Below are positions 12,699 through 22,204 of a stretch of 64,000 nucleotides of DNA, in pieces. The DNA is from Listeria ivanovii subsp. ivanovii. Lineage in GTDB: Bacteria; Bacillota; Bacilli; Lactobacillales; Listeriaceae. How positions within the stretch are numbered: the stretch's first letter is position 1; each line of letters begins with the position of its first letter. The position numbers were made by a program, and so were the translations under genes. The notes under the pieces are model-generated. The model was not told the origin of the DNA, did no database searches, and saw only the letters and a program-made list of their open reading frames with translations. The stretch is from assembly GCF_900187025.1 (NCBI RefSeq), contig NZ_LT906478.1, positions 2,464,001-2,528,000 of the forward strand, written 5' to 3'.

Positions 12699-15600
12699 TT
12701 ATTTTGTTCCAGACATAACTCGAACATTATCAATATGGATACTTGTTCCACCTGGTGAGTCCATTTGGAAACTTGTATTGATATTTCCAGTTGTTACTTT
12801 GACATCTTTAATTGATACGTAATGCCAAACATTATCTGCTACTAAATCAATTGTCTGACCTTCACCACTGTCATAATTATTTACTGTCATTTGGGCTTTT
12901 GCCGCATCATCTTCACTTACTTTAACCCAAGCTTCGACATCATATGTGGCATTATTCGCTGGTACAGAAATTTGTTGAGCTAGCGTTTGTTTATATGCGC
13001 CTGGGAGATAGAAGTAAGCACTTTGGCTACCGAATGCTGGTGATTCTGGAGGATTTACCCCTGAGCCACTATCTACACCATAAGCGTTATCTTGACCATC
13101 TGGATGTGATTCTACCCAATTGGTTGTTCTGCTCGGATCCCGTTCAAAACCGCCATTATCTAATAAATTTACTTCTGATTGGACTGGTGACTCAACTGGA
13201 TCTGCCGAAACGAGAATTCGGTCCATATTGATATTCCCTGTTGTTTCGCCGTCCATCAAAAAGGTGATTTTATTTGTTCCAGCTTTTAGATCTACTGCTT
13301 TTTCTGTATCTGACCAAATATTCCAGTTTTCTCCTTCTGAAGAGAAAGTAACGCGAGAATTATATTCGCCATTCGTGTACAAATCAAGTGTTTGTGGCAT
13401 ACCTGTTCCATTAGCAGTACGTGTGTTTAATACATACTCCCCGTCCGCTGGTACATCTACTTCAAACTTAATTTCATCTCCAGTTGTACCAAAACCACCA
13501 ACAAATCCTGCACCACTATAGAACCAGTGATCCGTTGCTACTGCAAGCGTTCCTGCAAGATCTGCTTCTTCTGCTTCGACTTTCGCAATAGTTGGCGTGA
13601 AACCAATATTTACTTTATCAAGTTGTACTTGGTCTGCTTTGTCATCTGCATCGGTTACCACTTTGTAAGTAATGCTATTTTTACCTGCTGAAAGTGGTAA
13701 TGCTTCTGATGCAACAGCTGAGTCTGCTGCTGGTTTTAGCGTTGTTTGTTTCACGTATTCACCGTTAACAAAAATACTTAATGATTGATTATCACTGGAA
13801 GCATTTTTATAAGTTAAATCCACATTGTAATCGCCAGCATCTTTTACATTGGCATAAACAGTTGTTCCAGCGCCATCTGTATCATAGCCATCTACATATG
13901 TTTTTTCAGAAACTGGTTTGTCAGCTACAGTACTTGCAAAACTGGAACCATTTTCCATTTCGTACGTTCCAGTTTGTACGACACTTTCAGAACCAGTAGT
14001 TGTAATCACTGTATCCGCATCTGCTTGAGCAGGTACTTTTACATACGTTACTGCGCCGTAAATATCGCTCGAAACAGCATAACCTTCTCCATCCGCATTT
14101 TCTAGTGCCGATAAATCATCATAAAATTTGCTATCTGCTCCGTCAACTTGAACGCTTTCTGCTGCATTTCCGTGGAGTTTAACAATATAATTTTCTGTAT
14201 CCGCTTGATAACTTCCTTCTTTTGCTCCAATAGTGAATGTCGTGCTATCAGCTGTTTTAGAAGTAGTCATTTTCTGTTTTAAATAGGTTTCTTTTTCGTA
14301 ATCAAAAGATTTTCCGTCATCGTCATAATGTGTAAACGTTGTATTATCTTCTGAAGCAAAAGTGTCTAAATAAACTGTTTTGACTGCTGATTCACCAACA
14401 TAGTTTTGTGGTTGTTGCATTGGCATAATTGCACCCTGTTTAACGAACATTGGTACATCTGTCCAGTCTTCATCATTTATTTCATAATTAATTGTTTGAT
14501 TTCCTTCATAAACATCTCCACGGTTATAGTCAACCCAAGTTCCTGCTGGTAAGTAAATATCACGAGAACCTGCGCCTTCTTCTAATATAGGTGCCGCAAG
14601 AATCCCATCACCAAACATCCACTCATCCGTCAAATCCACTACATTTTCATCAGTTGGATTGTCGAAAATTAATGGTTGAACTAGACCAACACCAGATTCA
14701 TACGCTTGTCTTTCGTATGCATACATATAAGGAATCATTGAATAGCGCCAAGTCATCGTGCTTTTCGCTACTTCTTCAGCTGTTCCACCATAATACCAAG
14801 GCTGACGTTGCTGATTGTCATTTCCGTGTGTACGGAAAACTGGTACAAGAGAACTAAATTCCATCCAACGGCTATATAGTTCAGGATCTGGATTTAAGAT
14901 TTGCCCAGAGTTAGCATTAAAGCCACCTGTATCCATGCCCCATTTCGTTTGTCCTAAATTAATTGTCGAAAGCATCGTACTTGGTTGTTCTTGCATCCCG
15001 TTTGCCTAATCAATTACCTCGCCTTTTTTCCATTGAACTCCGATATCTCCGGACCAAATGGAAGTGGAATAGCGTTGTGCTCCTGGGTAATACGTTCTAC
15101 CTGTTTGCCAAACACGTTTGTTTGTATATTCACGTTGCCCTTCGTACATTGCTTCGGAAGTGAAACCAGTTGTGAAATTACCGAACCAATAGTCTGCCCC
15201 ATTAGATGATACTTTGTCTGTTTCATCATTCCACCAACCTACAATACCTTTATCTAAAGCATCTTCGGAATGAGACCACCACCAGTTACGTTCGTCTGGG
15301 TTGTATGGGTCAATACTTCTAACTGTTACTGGGAAAGCATAATCTTCATATGCCGCTTGTCCAGGATACCAATAACCATTTGTTTCTGCGTCCTTACCTT
15401 GTTGCGTTTCTGTACCATCTTCTAAATTAGTTACAACACGTGGCTTCGTAATACCAATCATTTTGACCCCTAATGCATCCATATCCGTTTTTAAAGTTGT
15501 ATCCGCGGAAGATGGGAAATTATCCGTATTCCAAGCAAATTCACCGTAATCTCCTCCGTGGACCGGATCTCCGTAAAACTTCCAATCATAGTCAAAGGCA

Positions 15601-16625
15601 AATGAATCAATTGGAATTCCTTTTGCGCGATAAGTATCGATATTTTTTCTAAATTCCGCTTCATTTGTTCCCCACTCAAAGTTAGAAAAACCAAGCGACC
15701 ATTTCGGCATCATTGGTGTGTGTCCTGTAATATCGGCGTAAGAAGACATAATCGCTTCTGGTTTACCTGACATCAGGTACATTTCTACGTTCTCTTTCAC
15801 ATAACGGCGTCCTTCAACCACTGTATCACCATAATAAAACTCTAATTTTTCTTCATCTGAAACCGAATATGGATAACCACCATCACTATCTACTAAAAGA
15901 CCATATCCAGCTGTTGACCACATGAACGGTCCACCCGCATTTCCTTGCTGACCAGCTTGAGCAGTTTTCCCACTATCTGAAGCTGTATCATCGCGCTCCA
16001 TCCCAAGGTCTCCATCACCAAAACTAATTCCGTAAGCACCGTATACATGGTCACTCGCACTACGTTTAAATCTTACACCTCCATCAAAAATGCCACCATC
16101 AGCTGACTCAGATAATAAAGCTTTTCCGTCCTTATCTTTAAATGTCATCCGAGCTGGATTTTTGGCGATTTCGAGTGTACATTCATCGGTTGTGATTTTT
16201 ATTGGGTCTGATTCTAAATCAATCGTTGCTCCAATTGCTGTAAAAGTAGCATCTGGATCAATCATTGGCGTAGACTCACTATTTTCAATATTCCTTGGAC
16301 GCAAATTCACTTTTAATAAGTTGTTTGCTAGTGGAGAAATTTCCAGATAGTCATCTTGGTCTTCATCCCCATTATCGATTTTGAGTGTAATCACATTATC
16401 GGTTACCGTTGCATCAATAACATTACCAAGCCCTTCTTCTGCACTCAACTTCGCATACTCATCTTTACTTAATTGCTGAGCAGCTTCTGCTTTCGCCATT
16501 TCTTTTCCCTTGGTTTCTTCCGCATTTACTTGAACTTCAAGCGGCTGAGTTATCCCTAAATTCAGCCAAACAAGCGGAAGCACTGCCAAACTGACACAAA
16601 CTTGCTTCATACCTTTTTTCATCAT
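12699..16625 (-). pseudogene. Secreted GH31 6-alpha-glucosyltransferase-like gene (CtsZ type) cut by an amber codon
   Basis: One frame of 1,308 codons with a single in-frame TAG at 15008-15006 (codon 540). The first part has a signal peptide (to about NAEE), GH31 barrel, probable nucleophile Asp near 467 in GWWNDETD and acid/base D527 in SGDIG. The stop falls 12 codons later, before MDTGGF and the rest of the barrel. The 3' part encodes two CBM35-like domains and a C-terminal CBM-like domain ending VRVMSGTK. With the upstream 1,091-residue enzyme it matches the pair making cycloalternan from starch oligosaccharides. CAG to TAG is the simplest cause. A 765-codon ORF restarts at 14996, but without a signal peptide or catalytic residues. 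Confidence 0.9.
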
Positions 16626-16637
16626 CTCGCCCCTTTT

Positions 16638-17582
16638 TTATTCAGTGATTGTTACTGGAAAATCATACCACCCTACATATTCTCCACCGTTATAACCTAA
16701 GGAAATTTCTAGCAAATGTTCTCCTGGTTCTAAGAAGGCGGTTTCAATTGTATACATATATGACCCTTCATAGGTTGGATACACTGGTTTATATAATTCT
16801 TGGCCGTTATCTCGAATAATAATCAAGTTATCCTTACTTGGCACAATAAAATCTAACGCTTGATAGATAAATGGAACAAAAACTTCTAAATTCTCCCCCT
16901 GTTTAATCGTTGTTGGGGGATATGTTGCTGTTTGCTCATCAAAAGACCAGCTTCTAAGTTGTTTTGATTGGAATATTTCTTCTGGAATAGAAATTAAATG
17001 ATTTTGGAATAGCAAAAGTGTATCTAAGTTAGTCAAATTCATCCAAATATCCTCTGCAACATATCCAGAAAGCCCTGCATATTCCAAATTAACATCTACT
17101 AGACTCTCCATCCCAATAAAAAGAGGAATATTGAAGCCAAAATCATTTCCATGCATATCTATAGTTGTTAAATTAGGATAGACTTCATTTGGAAAAGAAG
17201 TAATATTTGCACTATAAGCTTGAATATTTTCTAAGGCAGGTAAACTTGCTGATAGTGAAGGCATCTCACCGATATTATTACTCCAAATAGCCAATTCTAC
17301 TGCATTAGGAAATACTTCATTATTAAGCACACTTAAATCTTCACCTGTTAAGTCTAATCCTGGTAAAGGAATTACTTCAATCGTATCCAAATCATCTTGA
17401 GTAATAATATCATTGACAGAATCTTTATCAAGTTCTTCTGCAAAAGCTTCTGCAATTGCTTCAACCGGAAAAGCTTCAATAATTGGAGCTGGCAATGGTA
17501 CCGTTTCAGCCTGCGCTTTTGTAACTGGAATAAAGATTATACAACAAATAGCTATAAATACCATCCCTATTATTTTTTTCAC
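16638..17582 (-). CDS. Secreted internalin-like leucine-rich repeat protein
   Basis: A 314-residue protein with a signal peptide (IIGMVFIAICCIIFIPVTKA, cleavage near QAE). An internalin-type cap follows (PAPIIEAFPVEAIAEAF, KDSVNDIITQDDLDTI), then about six irregular LRRs (VELAIWSNNIGEMPSL, LTTIDMHGNDFGFN, LDTLLLFQNHLISIPEEI). The C-terminal beta domain ends YVGWYDFPVTITE. No LPXTG, GW or other wall anchor is seen, so it should be released. It lies 59 bases after one GH31 gene and 12 before the other, in the same operon. A role in binding or presenting alpha-glucan or the enzymes is inference only. Confidence 0.85.
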   Translation of the reverse strand: MKKIIGMVFIAICCIIFIPVTKAQAETVPLPAPIIEAFPVEAIAEAFAEELDKDSVNDIITQDDLDTIEVIPLPGLDLTGEDLSVLNNEVFPNAVELAIWSNNIGEMPSLSASLPALENIQAYSANITSFPNEVYPNLTTIDMHGNDFGFNIPLFIGMESLVDVNLEYAGLSGYVAEDIWMNLTNLDTLLLFQNHLISIPEEIFQSKQLRSWSFDEQTATYPPTTIKQGENLEVFVPFIYQALDFIVPSKDNLIIIRDNGQELYKPVYPTYEGSYMYTIETAFLEPGEHLLEISLGYNGGEYVGWYDFPVTITE

Positions 17583-17640: not shown

Positions 17641-20600
17641 TCATTTCTTAATAACTACATGATCAAAGTTAATCCCCGCCGTATCATCTGCTTCAAAATC
17701 AAAGACGACTCGGTTATTTTCATCATGTAAGGTTACCGGAACTTCCACTGTTGCCCAAGTATCCCAATCGGCCGTTTTTGGTAAATTGATTTTTTGTTTT
17801 GAACCATTCACATAAACAGTTCTTGTCGCATCTTCTACACCAGCACTATAACGAACTTCCATTGTATACTCTGAAGCTCCATCAACTGCATCAATATCAA
17901 ACTCGACCGCTTCTTTTTCTTGATCAAAGCTTGCTACAAATCCTGTGCCAGTATATCCAGCATGGTCATTTGCAGTAGTTACATTCGTTAAATGACCGAA
18001 TTCTGCTTCGTATGGCGCATGATTTGTTCCATTCATTACAATCGTTTGAGCACTAGTTTTGATCCCAGCTTTTACATAAGTTAGATTTTGCAAGGAATCA
18101 TAGTAATAGCCAGTTGTAGCTTCATTAAATGCATCAAGTGTATCTGCTTTTGCTACTTCTGTTCCATCGATCGTAACGTCTGTTGGTTCTGTGCTGAAAA
18201 CTTGCATAGTTGTTTCATCTGCCATTGCAGGAAGATTTACTATTACTTTTTCATTGGCAAAGTCTTCGGAAACACTAATATCACGCATTTCTCCACCATT
18301 GACATCATCGTAAAAGCTGTATTCGCTATCTCCTGATGGATAAACACGGAAAGTTAGATTTTCATAAGCATCTATATCATTTCCGACATTCTGGCCCAGT
18401 TGATAACCGGCTGTCATATTCATTGGGATGATCGCTCCAGCTTTTGCAAAAACTGGAAGAGTATCGACATCAGCATAATAAGAAATTGTTTCTCCACCTG
18501 GATGAATACCACCATTCCAAATATCAACCCATTCTCCTTCAGGTAAATAAACTTCTTTTTCAGTTTGACCTTCTTGTACAATCGGTGCTACTAATAAATC
18601 ATCACCAAACATATACTGTTCATCTAAACCATGTGTGTTCACATCATCCGGATAATCCATTGCCATTTGGCGCATCATTGATTTACCATTGTCAGCAGTA
18701 TCTTTCGCTGCAGTGTAAATGTATGGTAATAAATTCATTCTTGTATATAAATATTTTTGGAACGTTGGTAAAATTGTTTCATCACCTGTTCTAGCTACTG
18801 CATTCCAAGGTGAGCGCTCTTCACTTGGCGAAGGATCTGATTTTTCCGAGTGGAACTGCATAATCGGTGCAAATGCTGCCATTGCTGTTGCCCGTTTATA
18901 AAGTTCTGATGTCGGATAGCTCCCCGTAAATCCAGCCATATCCCAAGCCCAATAAGAAACACCTGATGTAGATGCGCTAAGTCCAGCTTTCACGGATGAT
19001 TGGAATGACTCAAAGGTCGAAGTTTGATCGCCTGACCAGTAAATTCCAGATTTTTGTGCGCCTGAAGTTCCTGAACGACTGAATGAAACGGCATCTGGAT
19101 TAATGCTCTTCGCAAAATCAAAATAGCTAGAAACATAATCACTTGGATAACGGTTTCTCATTTCTTGTCCATTCTCACCATTAGAGAAAGTTGTATCGCG
19201 TCCCCAGACCATTTCTCCACCATCTGTTTTAAATCCATCAATACCCACATCTGTTAATAAGTATTCACGTTGCGACGTCCACCAATCTACTGCTTCTTCA
19301 TTAGTGAAGTCTAGTAATATCCCATTTCCAAACCACTGAGACGCTGGAACACGATATGGTGCTCCTGTCCCGTCATCCGCACTGTACCCTTGACTTATCA
19401 TGTATTCTTCATCATTATCTCGTTGTTCGTAAACAGTACCATCATCTTTTAATACTGGTACCTGCCATAAAACGATATTCATTCCTGCATCATGAACACT
19501 ATCCACCATTGTTTTTGGATCTGCCCATTTCCCGTTAAAAGTAAAATCGTCATAGCCAAATGCTTCCCCGTCTTTTTTAGCTGTGTAGGTTGCATCATTC
19601 CAGATATAGTACGTTTCTTCATCACTCCACTGCTCTAATACAAATCCAGTAGCTGGAATTTCGTTTTCTTCTGCATTAGCTAGTGCTGTACTAACATCTG
19701 AATCTCTGTCCCACTCATTTGCTGACATCCAAAGGCCAAAAGCCCATTTCGGTAGCAAAGTGGTTTTCCCAGTTATATCTGTATAATTATTCACAATATC
19801 ATTTTGATCTTTGCCGCTAATAACATAATAGTCTAGCATCGTCGTCATATCTCCATCATTGTCCAAAACAAAGCTGTACTTGTCTTCTACTTTAGAAGCC
19901 ATTTGGAACTGTGAATGGAAATCCGAATTAACATACATACCATATTTATTAGCACTTACAAAGAATGGTACTGCTAAATAAGTTCTTTCTGTTTGAGCTT
20001 GATCTTGATATTCATTATAGACATAAGTTTCTACATCTTTTCCACGTTGATTGATTGTGTCATAACGCTCACCAAAACCATAAAACGCTTCATCATTTGG
20101 TGTTACAAAATTATTTTGATATTGATTAATGACATTTTTCCCGTCAGTTAACCAACCTAAGCTATTTGCTGTTGTATATTCACTAGTAAGTAAAGTGCCA
20201 TCTGCTTGATAAACTTCCATTCGATATGGCGATTTTTGTATTTCCACTCGTAAATCATCGGTTGTAATCGTTATTTCATCTGCACCATCTTCCACAGTGT
20301 ATTCTGATTTACCACCATGTCCTGTTTCTTTACCAGTTGGTGAAAGTTCCATACGTAGTGTATCTATGTCTTCAAAAGAGACATATAACTTCGGTATAAA
20401 TCCCCCTGCCGTCGCTGTCATATTTAACGTAATAGAATCTCCATTATCAACTACACTACTAACATTCTCCACGTATTCCCAATCCGTTACATAAAAAGTG
20501 AATGGACCACTTTCATAAGTTGTACCTCCATTAGCAGATCCTTTTGTAGTATAAGTAATCTCGTCCCCTTTTTCAAAATTTCCTAAATCTGCTTTCCAGT

Positions 20601-20916
20601 AAGTATTGTTTCCACTATTATAATCATATTCTGCGGTTATCTTTTCTTGTGCCACTCCATTTTTTGTCCACTCAACCCAAACACTATCTCCGTCTTCAAT
20701 TGGCCAAGTTGTTATATTTAGAGTGACATCTTCCCCTGCTTTTGGATCTCTTGGTGAACGCTCTGTTGGTTGAACAGAGTATAAATCATCATCTCCATAT
20801 GGCGAGTGAAATTCTCCGTCCATCGCCCAAACATTCGTCCCAAATCCACTCAAACAACTAAAGATAAGTATACCTAAAATAAAAATCAAACTAATTTTTC
20901 TTGTCTTCCGCTTCAT
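17641..20916 (-). CDS. Secreted GH31 cycloalternan-forming enzyme (3-alpha-isomaltosyltransferase, CtsY type)
   Basis: An intact 1,091-residue GH31 protein with a signal peptide (KISLIFILGILIFSCLSGF, cleavage near WAMDG). The barrel has nucleophile Asp in GFKTDGGEMVWGRD and acid/base Asp in YWSGDQTS. A C-terminal CBM35 runs from about YEAEFGHLTN to INFDHVVIKK. Length equals that of the L. monocytogenes cycloalternan-forming enzyme and Bacillus CtsY (about 1,090). The enzyme transfers isomaltosyl units to make the cyclic tetrasaccharide. Its substrate normally comes from the 6-glucosyltransferase encoded downstream, which is interrupted here. First gene of the three-gene operon. Confidence 0.92.
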   Translation of the reverse strand: MKRKTRKISLIFILGILIFSCLSGFGTNVWAMDGEFHSPYGDDDLYSVQPTERSPRDPKAGEDVTLNITTWPIEDGDSVWVEWTKNGVAQEKITAEYDYNSGNNTYWKADLGNFEKGDEITYTTKGSANGGTTYESGPFTFYVTDWEYVENVSSVVDNGDSITLNMTATAGGFIPKLYVSFEDIDTLRMELSPTGKETGHGGKSEYTVEDGADEITITTDDLRVEIQKSPYRMEVYQADGTLLTSEYTTANSLGWLTDGKNVINQYQNNFVTPNDEAFYGFGERYDTINQRGKDVETYVYNEYQDQAQTERTYLAVPFFVSANKYGMYVNSDFHSQFQMASKVEDKYSFVLDNDGDMTTMLDYYVISGKDQNDIVNNYTDITGKTTLLPKWAFGLWMSANEWDRDSDVSTALANAEENEIPATGFVLEQWSDEETYYIWNDATYTAKKDGEAFGYDDFTFNGKWADPKTMVDSVHDAGMNIVLWQVPVLKDDGTVYEQRDNDEEYMISQGYSADDGTGAPYRVPASQWFGNGILLDFTNEEAVDWWTSQREYLLTDVGIDGFKTDGGEMVWGRDTTFSNGENGQEMRNRYPSDYVSSYFDFAKSINPDAVSFSRSGTSGAQKSGIYWSGDQTSTFESFQSSVKAGLSASTSGVSYWAWDMAGFTGSYPTSELYKRATAMAAFAPIMQFHSEKSDPSPSEERSPWNAVARTGDETILPTFQKYLYTRMNLLPYIYTAAKDTADNGKSMMRQMAMDYPDDVNTHGLDEQYMFGDDLLVAPIVQEGQTEKEVYLPEGEWVDIWNGGIHPGGETISYYADVDTLPVFAKAGAIIPMNMTAGYQLGQNVGNDIDAYENLTFRVYPSGDSEYSFYDDVNGGEMRDISVSEDFANEKVIVNLPAMADETTMQVFSTEPTDVTIDGTEVAKADTLDAFNEATTGYYYDSLQNLTYVKAGIKTSAQTIVMNGTNHAPYEAEFGHLTNVTTANDHAGYTGTGFVASFDQEKEAVEFDIDAVDGASEYTMEVRYSAGVEDATRTVYVNGSKQKINLPKTADWDTWATVEVPVTLHDENNRVVFDFEADDTAGINFDHVVIKK

Positions 20917-21027
20917 CTCACTTTCCTCCCTTATTCGCCTTTGTCCAAAAAAAGTACTACTTTTGATGCAATATTTTTCAAAATTGTTAATTTTAGAATA
21001 GTTGTGTTGTACATATAATCACATAAT

Positions 21028-21055
21028 GTTATAATTTTTCACAGATACACTACAA
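21028..21055 (-). promoter_or_regulatory. Putative promoter of the GH31 operon
   Basis: TTGTAG (21050-21055) and TATAAC (21028-21033) with a 16-base spacer on the minus strand. It lies after the terminator of the short peptide ORF and about 110 bases ahead of the first enzyme gene. Confidence 0.45.
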
Positions 21056-21083
21056 ATATTCAAATTAACCTCCTTCCACAAAA

Positions 21084-21130
21084 AACGCAATTATGCCAGA
21101 CCACATTCATGGAAAAACAATAATTGCGTT
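21084..21130 (-). terminator. Terminator or attenuator after the 12-codon ORF
   Basis: A perfect 11-pair stem (AACGCAATTAT / ATAATTGCGTT) followed by a T run on the minus strand, 26 bases past the short ORF stop. It could end a tiny transcript or attenuate the downstream GH31 operon. Confidence 0.8.
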
Positions 21131-21155
21131 CATCAGAAGAACTTGCATAGCTAAC

Positions 21156-21194
21156 CTAGAATAACCAGTTAATACTTGTTAAAAAAGTTAACAT
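21156..21194 (-). CDS. 12-residue hydrophobic peptide ORF, candidate signalling or leader peptide
   Basis: ATG 21194 follows AGGAGG at eight bases, an excellent ribosome binding site in otherwise non-coding DNA. The frame encodes MLTFLTSINWLF and stops with TAG. It is divergent from the Rgg-like regulator (start 21293) and followed by a perfect terminator hairpin, making a compact unit. Short hydrophobic peptides next to Rgg/RRNPP regulators are often their ligands, but known SHP precursors are usually 20 or more residues long. A leader-peptide role is an alternative. No similarity was recognised. Confidence 0.55.
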   Translation of the reverse strand: MLTFLTSINWLF

Positions 21195-21292
21195 GTTGTC
21201 TCCCTCCTTTTTTTATCTATGCCTAAATTCTATCTTAGAAACCCAACATAAAATTAAAATACATCAAATTTGAACAAAAGGAGTTGTGTTTT

Positions 21293-22204
21293 ATGCAAAA
21301 TGTCGGTGATACGTTAAAATTCATTCGAAAAAGTAAGAGCTTAACACAAAAAGAAGCTTGCTCTGAAGCACTAAGTCGTTCTAATTACCAAAAGATTGAG
21401 AATAATAAGATCATGCCGAGTATAGACCGTTTTATTCAAATCTTACTTAATTTTAATATGACACTAGAAGAATTTGAGTTCGTTAAGCGTGATTTTACAC
21501 CTTCTCCAAAAGAAAATATCCTTTACTTATACTCCAAGATTCTCACTTCTTCAGAAACAGATATTCTCACAGATGTTATTTCCAAATGCGAGGATTACTT
21601 AAAAGAACACCCAACTGATATCTTTATTTCAGATGTGAAAGCTTCTCTTGAAGGTATTTTGCTTGCCGAAAAAGAACATGATTTCAAATTAGCTCGAGAA
21701 AAAGTAGCTTACATTTGGGAAAGGTTATCCAAATCAGGTGAATTATTTTGGAATGATATTATGGTCTTAAGAAATATTTTCTTTATTTTTGAAAATGAAA
21801 CCGCTCAACATATTGTCAATCGATTAATTGTTCAACTTAAGAAATATCGCTATTTATACCCAACTCTTTCGATTGAGATTTCCCTTCACGTCAATCGCGC
21901 CACTTACTTAATTTTAGATGAAAAGTATGAACTTGCCTTATACTTTATCGAAAAGTCCATTAAAATAGCTAAGCAAAATCACTACTATATCCAGTTTTGT
22001 ATGGCTGTAGCTAAAAAAGGCATTGTGCTGTATAAATTAGGGGAAAAGGAGGCTGGAAAAGTATTTATGCAACGGGCGCTTCGAGTTGCTAAAGTCCTTG
22101 AAGAAGAGCGGATTTTAAGTGGCATTAAAGATGAAATTAATTATTTCCTGCATGATGATATTGAGCAGCTTTCCTTAAATGAAGCAACAAAGATTAATTT
22201 ATAA
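21293..22204 (+). CDS. Rgg/GadR/MutR-family transcriptional regulator
   Basis: A 303-residue protein. ATG 21293 has AAAGGAG upstream; an ATG three codons earlier is less well placed. An N-terminal HTH (VGDTLKFIRKSKSLTQKEAC, then SNYQKIENNKIMPSIDRF) is followed by a long helical repeat region (about 75-300) with AREKVAYIWERL and LALYFIEKSIKIAKQ, the TPR-like C-terminal domain of the Rgg family. These RRNPP-type regulators bind short imported peptides. It is divergent from the GH31/LRR operon and the short peptide ORF, and is the natural candidate to control them. Confidence 0.88.
   Translation: MQNVGDTLKFIRKSKSLTQKEACSEALSRSNYQKIENNKIMPSIDRFIQILLNFNMTLEEFEFVKRDFTPSPKENILYLYSKILTSSETDILTDVISKCEDYLKEHPTDIFISDVKASLEGILLAEKEHDFKLAREKVAYIWERLSKSGELFWNDIMVLRNIFFIFENETAQHIVNRLIVQLKKYRYLYPTLSIEISLHVNRATYLILDEKYELALYFIEKSIKIAKQNHYYIQFCMAVAKKGIVLYKLGEKEAGKVFMQRALRVAKVLEEERILSGIKDEINYFLHDDIEQLSLNEATKINL

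Follow-up and report, generated by a model that had tools for sequence, protein, structure and literature searches.

The window is a 64,000-nt stretch of the Listeria ivanovii subsp. ivanovii genome (NZ_LT906478.1, positions 2,464,001 to 2,528,000), and the system described here is a 12-codon open reading frame (ORF) lying between an Rgg-type regulator gene, from which it diverges, and an operon for cycloalternan. The parts of the locus are listed below.

21156..21194, minus strand: peptide gene MLTFLTSINWLF, ATG at 21194, stop ending at 21156, 12 codons and a stop
21203..21210, minus strand: ribosome binding site AAAGGAGG, read from the sequence and kept in orthologues
21227..21232, minus strand: candidate -10 (TAGAAT) of the peptide promoter, proposed from the sequence, without a good -35
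21254..21275, minus strand: proposed operator, a conserved 22-bp block GTTCAAATTTGATGTATTTTAA, with constant spacing to the peptide ATG across 13/13 loci
21080..21130, minus strand: intrinsic terminator 3' of the peptide gene, from sequence and fold
21293..22204, plus strand: Rgg-type regulator, lmo2447 orthologue, proposed receptor, from family matches and a fold model
17641..20916, minus strand: GH31 enzyme, Lmo2446 orthologue, cycloalternan-forming, proposed target, from its match to a solved structure

The peptide gene and its signals

The peptide ATG lies 99 nt from that of the regulator (21293). A ribosome site, an ATG and 12 codons at this distance from an oppositely oriented regulator had been described in a first-pass annotation of the sequence, and are borne out by reading it again. 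The same holds for the 11-pair terminator behind the ORF; its stem (AACGCAATTAT/ATAATTGCGTT, approximately 21086-21130) is followed by TTTTTT and the RNA fold agrees. A simple terminator scan misses the stem because it permits loops of 3-8 only. The short RNA, expected earlier to be about 110 bases, is now predicted to be about 140 nt, running from approximately 21220 to 21080. No consensus sigma-70 promoter was listed by a promoter scan of the minus strand from 20806 to 21741, which is in line with an activator-dependent promoter before the peptide gene. To gauge chance, 4000 dinucleotide shuffles of the intergenic strand were scanned for an ATG ORF of 6-35 codons with a ribosome site. At least 6 ribosome-site bases were reached in 144 shuffles, at least 7 in 29 and at least 8 in 3; the real peptide ORF has 8.

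Conservation across Listeria

The search covered 25 Listeria genomes, including the window's own. An Rgg-like match of any kind was found in 24 of these, and regulator orthologues of at least 84% identity in 12. Each of the 12 close orthologues is faced, at a distance of 97-101 nt, by a divergent ORF whose ribosome site is the same throughout, and the peptides have the consensus ML[TN][FL][LVF][TK]S[IV]NW[LI]F. Locus L008, whose regulator shares 99% identity with a protein assigned by name to L. monocytogenes, has the peptide MLTFLTSVNWLF. In the alignment the peptide ORF is gap-free and its flanks are gapped. Six of the 13 substitution types within the ORF are synonymous, compared with 2.8 expected, and none creates a stop (P 0.0125, or 0.020 without the ATG). 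For the six C-terminal codons, taken over all sequences including the more distant L. costaricensis, four of six types are synonymous against 1.1 expected, with a P of 0.0043 that must be read in the knowledge that these codons were picked after the data were seen. On this comparative evidence the 12-codon ORF is a real gene, conserved at the amino-acid level and most of all in the last six residues, S[IV]NW[LI]F. The earlier proposal to look for the ORF in other Listeria was taken up and did not refute it, as all 12 close orthologues and L. costaricensis keep the peptide.

The rearranged locus of L. costaricensis

The regulator of locus L013 is 46% identical to that of the window; the name L. 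costaricensis for this locus rests on protein P0043. Here regulator and GH31 share a strand, GH31 being the downstream gene, and a peptide was sought between the two because their kept linkage predicted one there. The order found was regulator, terminator-like site (2511-2530), 22-bp block GTTCATATTTGATGCATATTAA, AAGGAGG, peptide MLATILESINWLF, a hairpin with a T tract, and GH31. The peptide gene adjoins the regulator but is not divergent from it. The last six residues of MLATILESINWLF are identical to those of the window peptide, with three synonymous changes in their codons. The hairpin behind it is unrelated in sequence to the window's terminator. No plus-strand promoter-like site was listed before the L. 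costaricensis peptide or between the peptide and GH31. After GH31 come a 1313-aa gene resembling the window's second GH31 gene and then three genes of 287-408 aa.

These data bear on what the first-pass annotation had named as the main alternative, a leader-peptide or attenuator role. Spelled out, translation of the ORF, or a failure of it, would decide whether polymerase passes through the terminator into the operon, the regulator acting on initiation only. A terminator does stand between peptide and GH31 in 11/12 orthologues, and in L. costaricensis with its unrelated sequence; in the predicted folds for the window and for L013, part of the ribosome site pairs with sequence 3' of the stop codon. 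However, it is amino acids rather than codons that are kept, above all in S[IV]NW[LI]F, and the ORF has no run of a single codon. No alternative structure was supported (covariation term -0.2, with 1/46 pairs changed on both sides), and L003, assigned to L. seeligeri through protein P0007, has an intact peptide but a shorter hairpin that has lost its T tract. Attenuation is weakened by these observations, and although it is still the main rival we think it unlikely.

Two further features of the L. costaricensis locus were seen. Within L013:1043-1170 the exact 22-bp block occurs once more, beside an apparent short gene remnant between SmpB and the regulator. A match to the catabolite (cre) consensus lies just before the regulator gene (L013:1420-1434; 0.09 expected by chance in the locus); no cre match was found at the window's circuit.

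The 22-bp block and co-occurrence

From the start of the 22-bp block to the peptide ATG the distance is 79-81 nt in 12/12 orthologues, and in L. costaricensis it is 79 nt. It was assigned to the peptide promoter because in L. costaricensis it is no longer beside the regulator start, while its spacing to the peptide is kept. The window's genome holds the block once exactly, with one further match at 3 mismatches (reversed control, 2 matches). As the exact block occurs only at this locus, the predicted regulon is this locus alone. Of the 25 genomes, 13 carry exact copies, L. costaricensis having two. Matches at 2 mismatches were also seen in five genomes, and the reversed control gave 8 matches over all 25. 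The peptide pattern was found in 13/25 genomes and its reversed control in 0/25. The same 13 genomes hold the regulator, the peptide pattern, the exact block and the gene for the cycloalternan GH31 enzyme. The operator and peptide patterns were drawn up after the 13 loci had been viewed, and the informative half of this result is therefore the absence of both from the other 12 genomes. The GH31 gene is in several pieces in G015 (C1), where the locus has a run of N, and in G011 (C4:76820-79864) it matches only from residue 77.

Predicted regulator promoter and RNA overlap

Two further sites lie upstream of the regulator, with the peptide gene between them and it.

21007..21035, plus strand: candidate regulator promoter TTGTAC-17-TATAAT, with TG before the -10; TTGTNN-17-TATAAT in 12/12 orthologues
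21008..21023, no strand: Rex-like palindrome TGTACATATAATCACA, weak, 8/10 core bases

The promoter pattern, with its TG before the -10, lies 262-294 nt before the regulator in all 12 orthologues. If it is used, the regulator leader would be antisense to the whole peptide transcript. The working part might then be the short RNA itself, as an antisense RNA on the leader of the regulator mRNA, and the predicted full overlap of the two RNAs speaks for this. In L. costaricensis there is no such overlap, because the peptide gene follows the regulator in the same orientation, yet the ribosome site, the ORF and the peptide C-terminus are all kept. We consider this explanation most improbable.

The palindrome, which overlaps the candidate regulator promoter, was scored against the Rex consensus. 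It has 9/10 core bases in 4/12 orthologues and 8/10 in the other 8, the window among them; a score of 8/10 was reached by 78/500 shuffles. A table of genes regulated by Rex lists the L. monocytogenes gene lmo2447 with the value 10.76 (PMC8389512), and the available part of that paper names Rex sites for other genes and not for lmo2447. In another study it is called the most downregulated gene on desiccation (PMC6987299).

The regulator and its relatives

The Rgg-type identity given to the regulator by the first-pass annotation is upheld by matches to Rgg_C (Pfam, E 1.2e-9) and, narrowly, to RGG_Cterm TIGR01716 (38.2 bits against a cut-off of 36.9). Family matches, the predicted model and its fold matches all give the helix-turn-helix (HTH) and C-terminal helical-repeat domain of the Rgg / RRNPP group, and the protein is predicted to fold as a peptide-pheromone receptor. 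With the model as the query, Foldseek placed Lmo0325 (PDB 4ryk) first and NrpR (PDB 9lth) third. Lmo0325 is also the closest solved relative by sequence search (E 5.9e-9, or 5.7e-24 with profile A5). The E values with the wider profile were 1.8e-19 for Rgg2, 1.3e-15 for NrpR and 6.4e-9 for RopB, the RopB chains being compared without the HTH that raises the scores of the other receptors. RopB gave no match at E up to 1 with the profile of close orthologues. Profile scores thus lean away from the RopB clan, although membership or otherwise is unproven. In a quick tree of 74 regulators, in which many branches are long, the window's 12-row clade (99) is joined by L. costaricensis (99) and then, more weakly, by the three-peptide regulator described below (83).

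Comparison with known peptide signals

Leaderless communication peptides (LCPs) are mostly 8-10 aa long with few exceptions, are mostly encoded divergently from an Rgg-type receptor, are usually rich in aliphatic and aromatic residues, and when validated have no leader and act between cells (PMC10518010). The locus probably works like an LCP system (RopB/SIP). Both have a leaderless, very short hydrophobic ORF with a strong ribosome site next to an Rgg-type receptor, mostly divergent, together with a conserved DNA block before the peptide promoter and an adjacent target operon. The Streptococcus salivarius receptor, as reported, binds only before the peptide promoter, with its target adjacent, and the Listeria locus can be likened to it. 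The Listeria peptide is rich in aliphatic and aromatic residues but, at 12-13 aa, is longer than most LCPs. Its receptor is closer to Rgg2 and Lmo0325 by profile score, the receptor promoter is predicted beyond the signal gene, a terminator separates signal from target, and the target is a GH31 cycloalternan enzyme. Listeriaceae are not among the six host families listed in the part of the LCP literature available.

The best-matching LCP receptor, in profile score and Foldseek rank alike, is NrpR of the NrpR-NIP pair of S. salivarius (PMC12186490). The Listeria regulator has counterparts of the Asn pair with which NrpR contacts its peptide, the spacing being 40 in both, but identity in structural alignments is 14-16% and the NrpR target is an antibiotic cluster. 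Rgg2/Rgg3 of streptococci, with their short hydrophobic peptides (SHPs), share the receptor fold, the HTH and a small divergent signal gene. SHPs come from longer precursors that carry a leader (PMC13361665), whereas the 12 orthologues and L. costaricensis have 12-13 codons and no basic or hydrophobic leader. It had been noted earlier that the peptide is shorter than SHP or ComS precursors. The worry that this raised is answered by the LCP class (PMC10518010), against which the peptide is long. Lmo0325 of L. monocytogenes is 23% identical to the regulator and is annotated only as a putative transcriptional regulator. Listeria is unnamed in the main texts, as distinct from the supplements, of PMC10518010, PMC9765709, PMC13361665 and PMC10075063. 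A Listeria pheromone paper (PMC4379056) counts Rgg-like proteins, and the part of it available does not name this locus.

Proposed circuit

The product of the 12-codon gene is a conserved hydrophobic peptide without a leader. We consider it likely that this peptide is the signal for the neighbouring Rgg-type receptor, which, once bound, would activate the promoter of the peptide gene and, via it, the cycloalternan operon; the binding, signalling and transcription in this circuit are inferred. The peptide would be exported and re-imported, or would act inside the cell. It would bind the helical-repeat pocket of the regulator, making it an activator at the 22-bp block, and regulator and peptide together would activate the peptide promoter. 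Most transcripts would end at the terminator as a short mRNA for the signal, with read-through or a second weak promoter feeding the operon. The predicted regulator promoter, on the other side of the peptide gene, may be repressed by Rex. Low redox would then arm the circuit, and the regulator leader RNA would cross the peptide gene in antisense. The first-pass suggestion of an Rgg protein that senses the peptide and links it to the cycloalternan operon is partly supported, by conservation, co-occurrence and the anatomy of the locus.

The peptide might instead bind the regulator without leaving the cell, reporting its own transcription and not cell density. In favour of this, it has no leader or export signal, it is made beside its proposed receptor, and no sign of its secretion was seen; validated LCPs likewise have no leader, yet act between cells (PMC10518010). 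A purely cell-autonomous role seems to us improbable.

If the proposed circuit is correct, a peptide signal, present in L. monocytogenes too, is added to those described for Listeria, and leaderless signalling reaches a family not listed among its hosts. A 12-mer that can readily be synthesised would be the ligand for an orphan regulator prominent in published redox and desiccation gene lists, and cycloalternan would be linked to the condition of the population or the cell.

Other Rgg regulators facing short ORFs

The starts of 73 further Rgg-type regulators were surveyed, and 33 face a divergent ATG ORF (6-35 codons, at least 6 ribosome-site bases); the same-strand control gave 0, its stretch having been trimmed by 45 nt so as to exclude the ribosome site of the regulator itself. 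The survey double-counts a few loci (L025/L071, L013/L072, L026/L070 and L028/L053) and omits L001-L012, L031-L033, L048, L049 and L069; L024, L045 and L064 are without alignment. Several of the 33 ORFs are basic or polar, not signal-like, and may be nothing. Many of the ORFs from Listeriaceae look leaderless, namely MLSSITVMIYYIFS, MFSSITVLINFIFN, MLASVLVYFIIV, MLASVFAYFIIA, MMQMINWFFGSSNYLR, MWLMINWFLGGTKYIG and the three successive ones described below, and the survey suggests several more leaderless peptide-Rgg pairs in this family.

More tentatively, Listeriaceae may own a second, independent leaderless peptide-Rgg branch outside the RopB clan. Its most conserved member would control extracellular cycloalternan as a density switch armed by redox. 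The receptor mRNA would start past the signal gene and cross it in antisense, so that transcription of the signal and of the receptor would work against each other. As a whole we regard this wider proposal as possible but somewhat doubtful.

Three groups of loci were noted in the survey. At L071:5770-5940, minus strand (also L025), probably L. immobilis, three successive short ORFs, MTGLIQVLIQWWM, MNKNLGFILYSNWWIG and MKPCFQKWGHWWM, each have a ribosome site and WW near the end, and diverge from an Rgg regulator with 37% identity to that of the window. The regulators at L029, L051 and L066 are distant (27-30% identical), yet the INW core of the window peptide recurs in the peptides that diverge from them, MMQMINWFFGSSNYLR and MWLMINWFLGGTKYIG. 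Outside Listeriaceae, Rgg relatives at L037, L073, L074, L075 and L082 face longer precursor-like peptides of the MKKVLKKLIAFLPVIWFIGGGG type, that of L082 ending WEWWWL.

The cycloalternan operon

The orthologue of the first GH31 gene is Lmo2446, whose solved structures (PDB 5f7u, 4kmq) are those of the cycloalternan-forming enzyme. Two further genes follow.

16638..17582, minus strand: leucine-rich protein, next operon gene, from its ORF
12699..16625, minus strand: second GH31-like gene, a single frame broken by an in-frame stop near 15006, from its ORFs

The leucine-rich protein is presumably of the lmo2445 type. The 1313-aa relative of the second GH31-like gene in L. costaricensis is uninterrupted.
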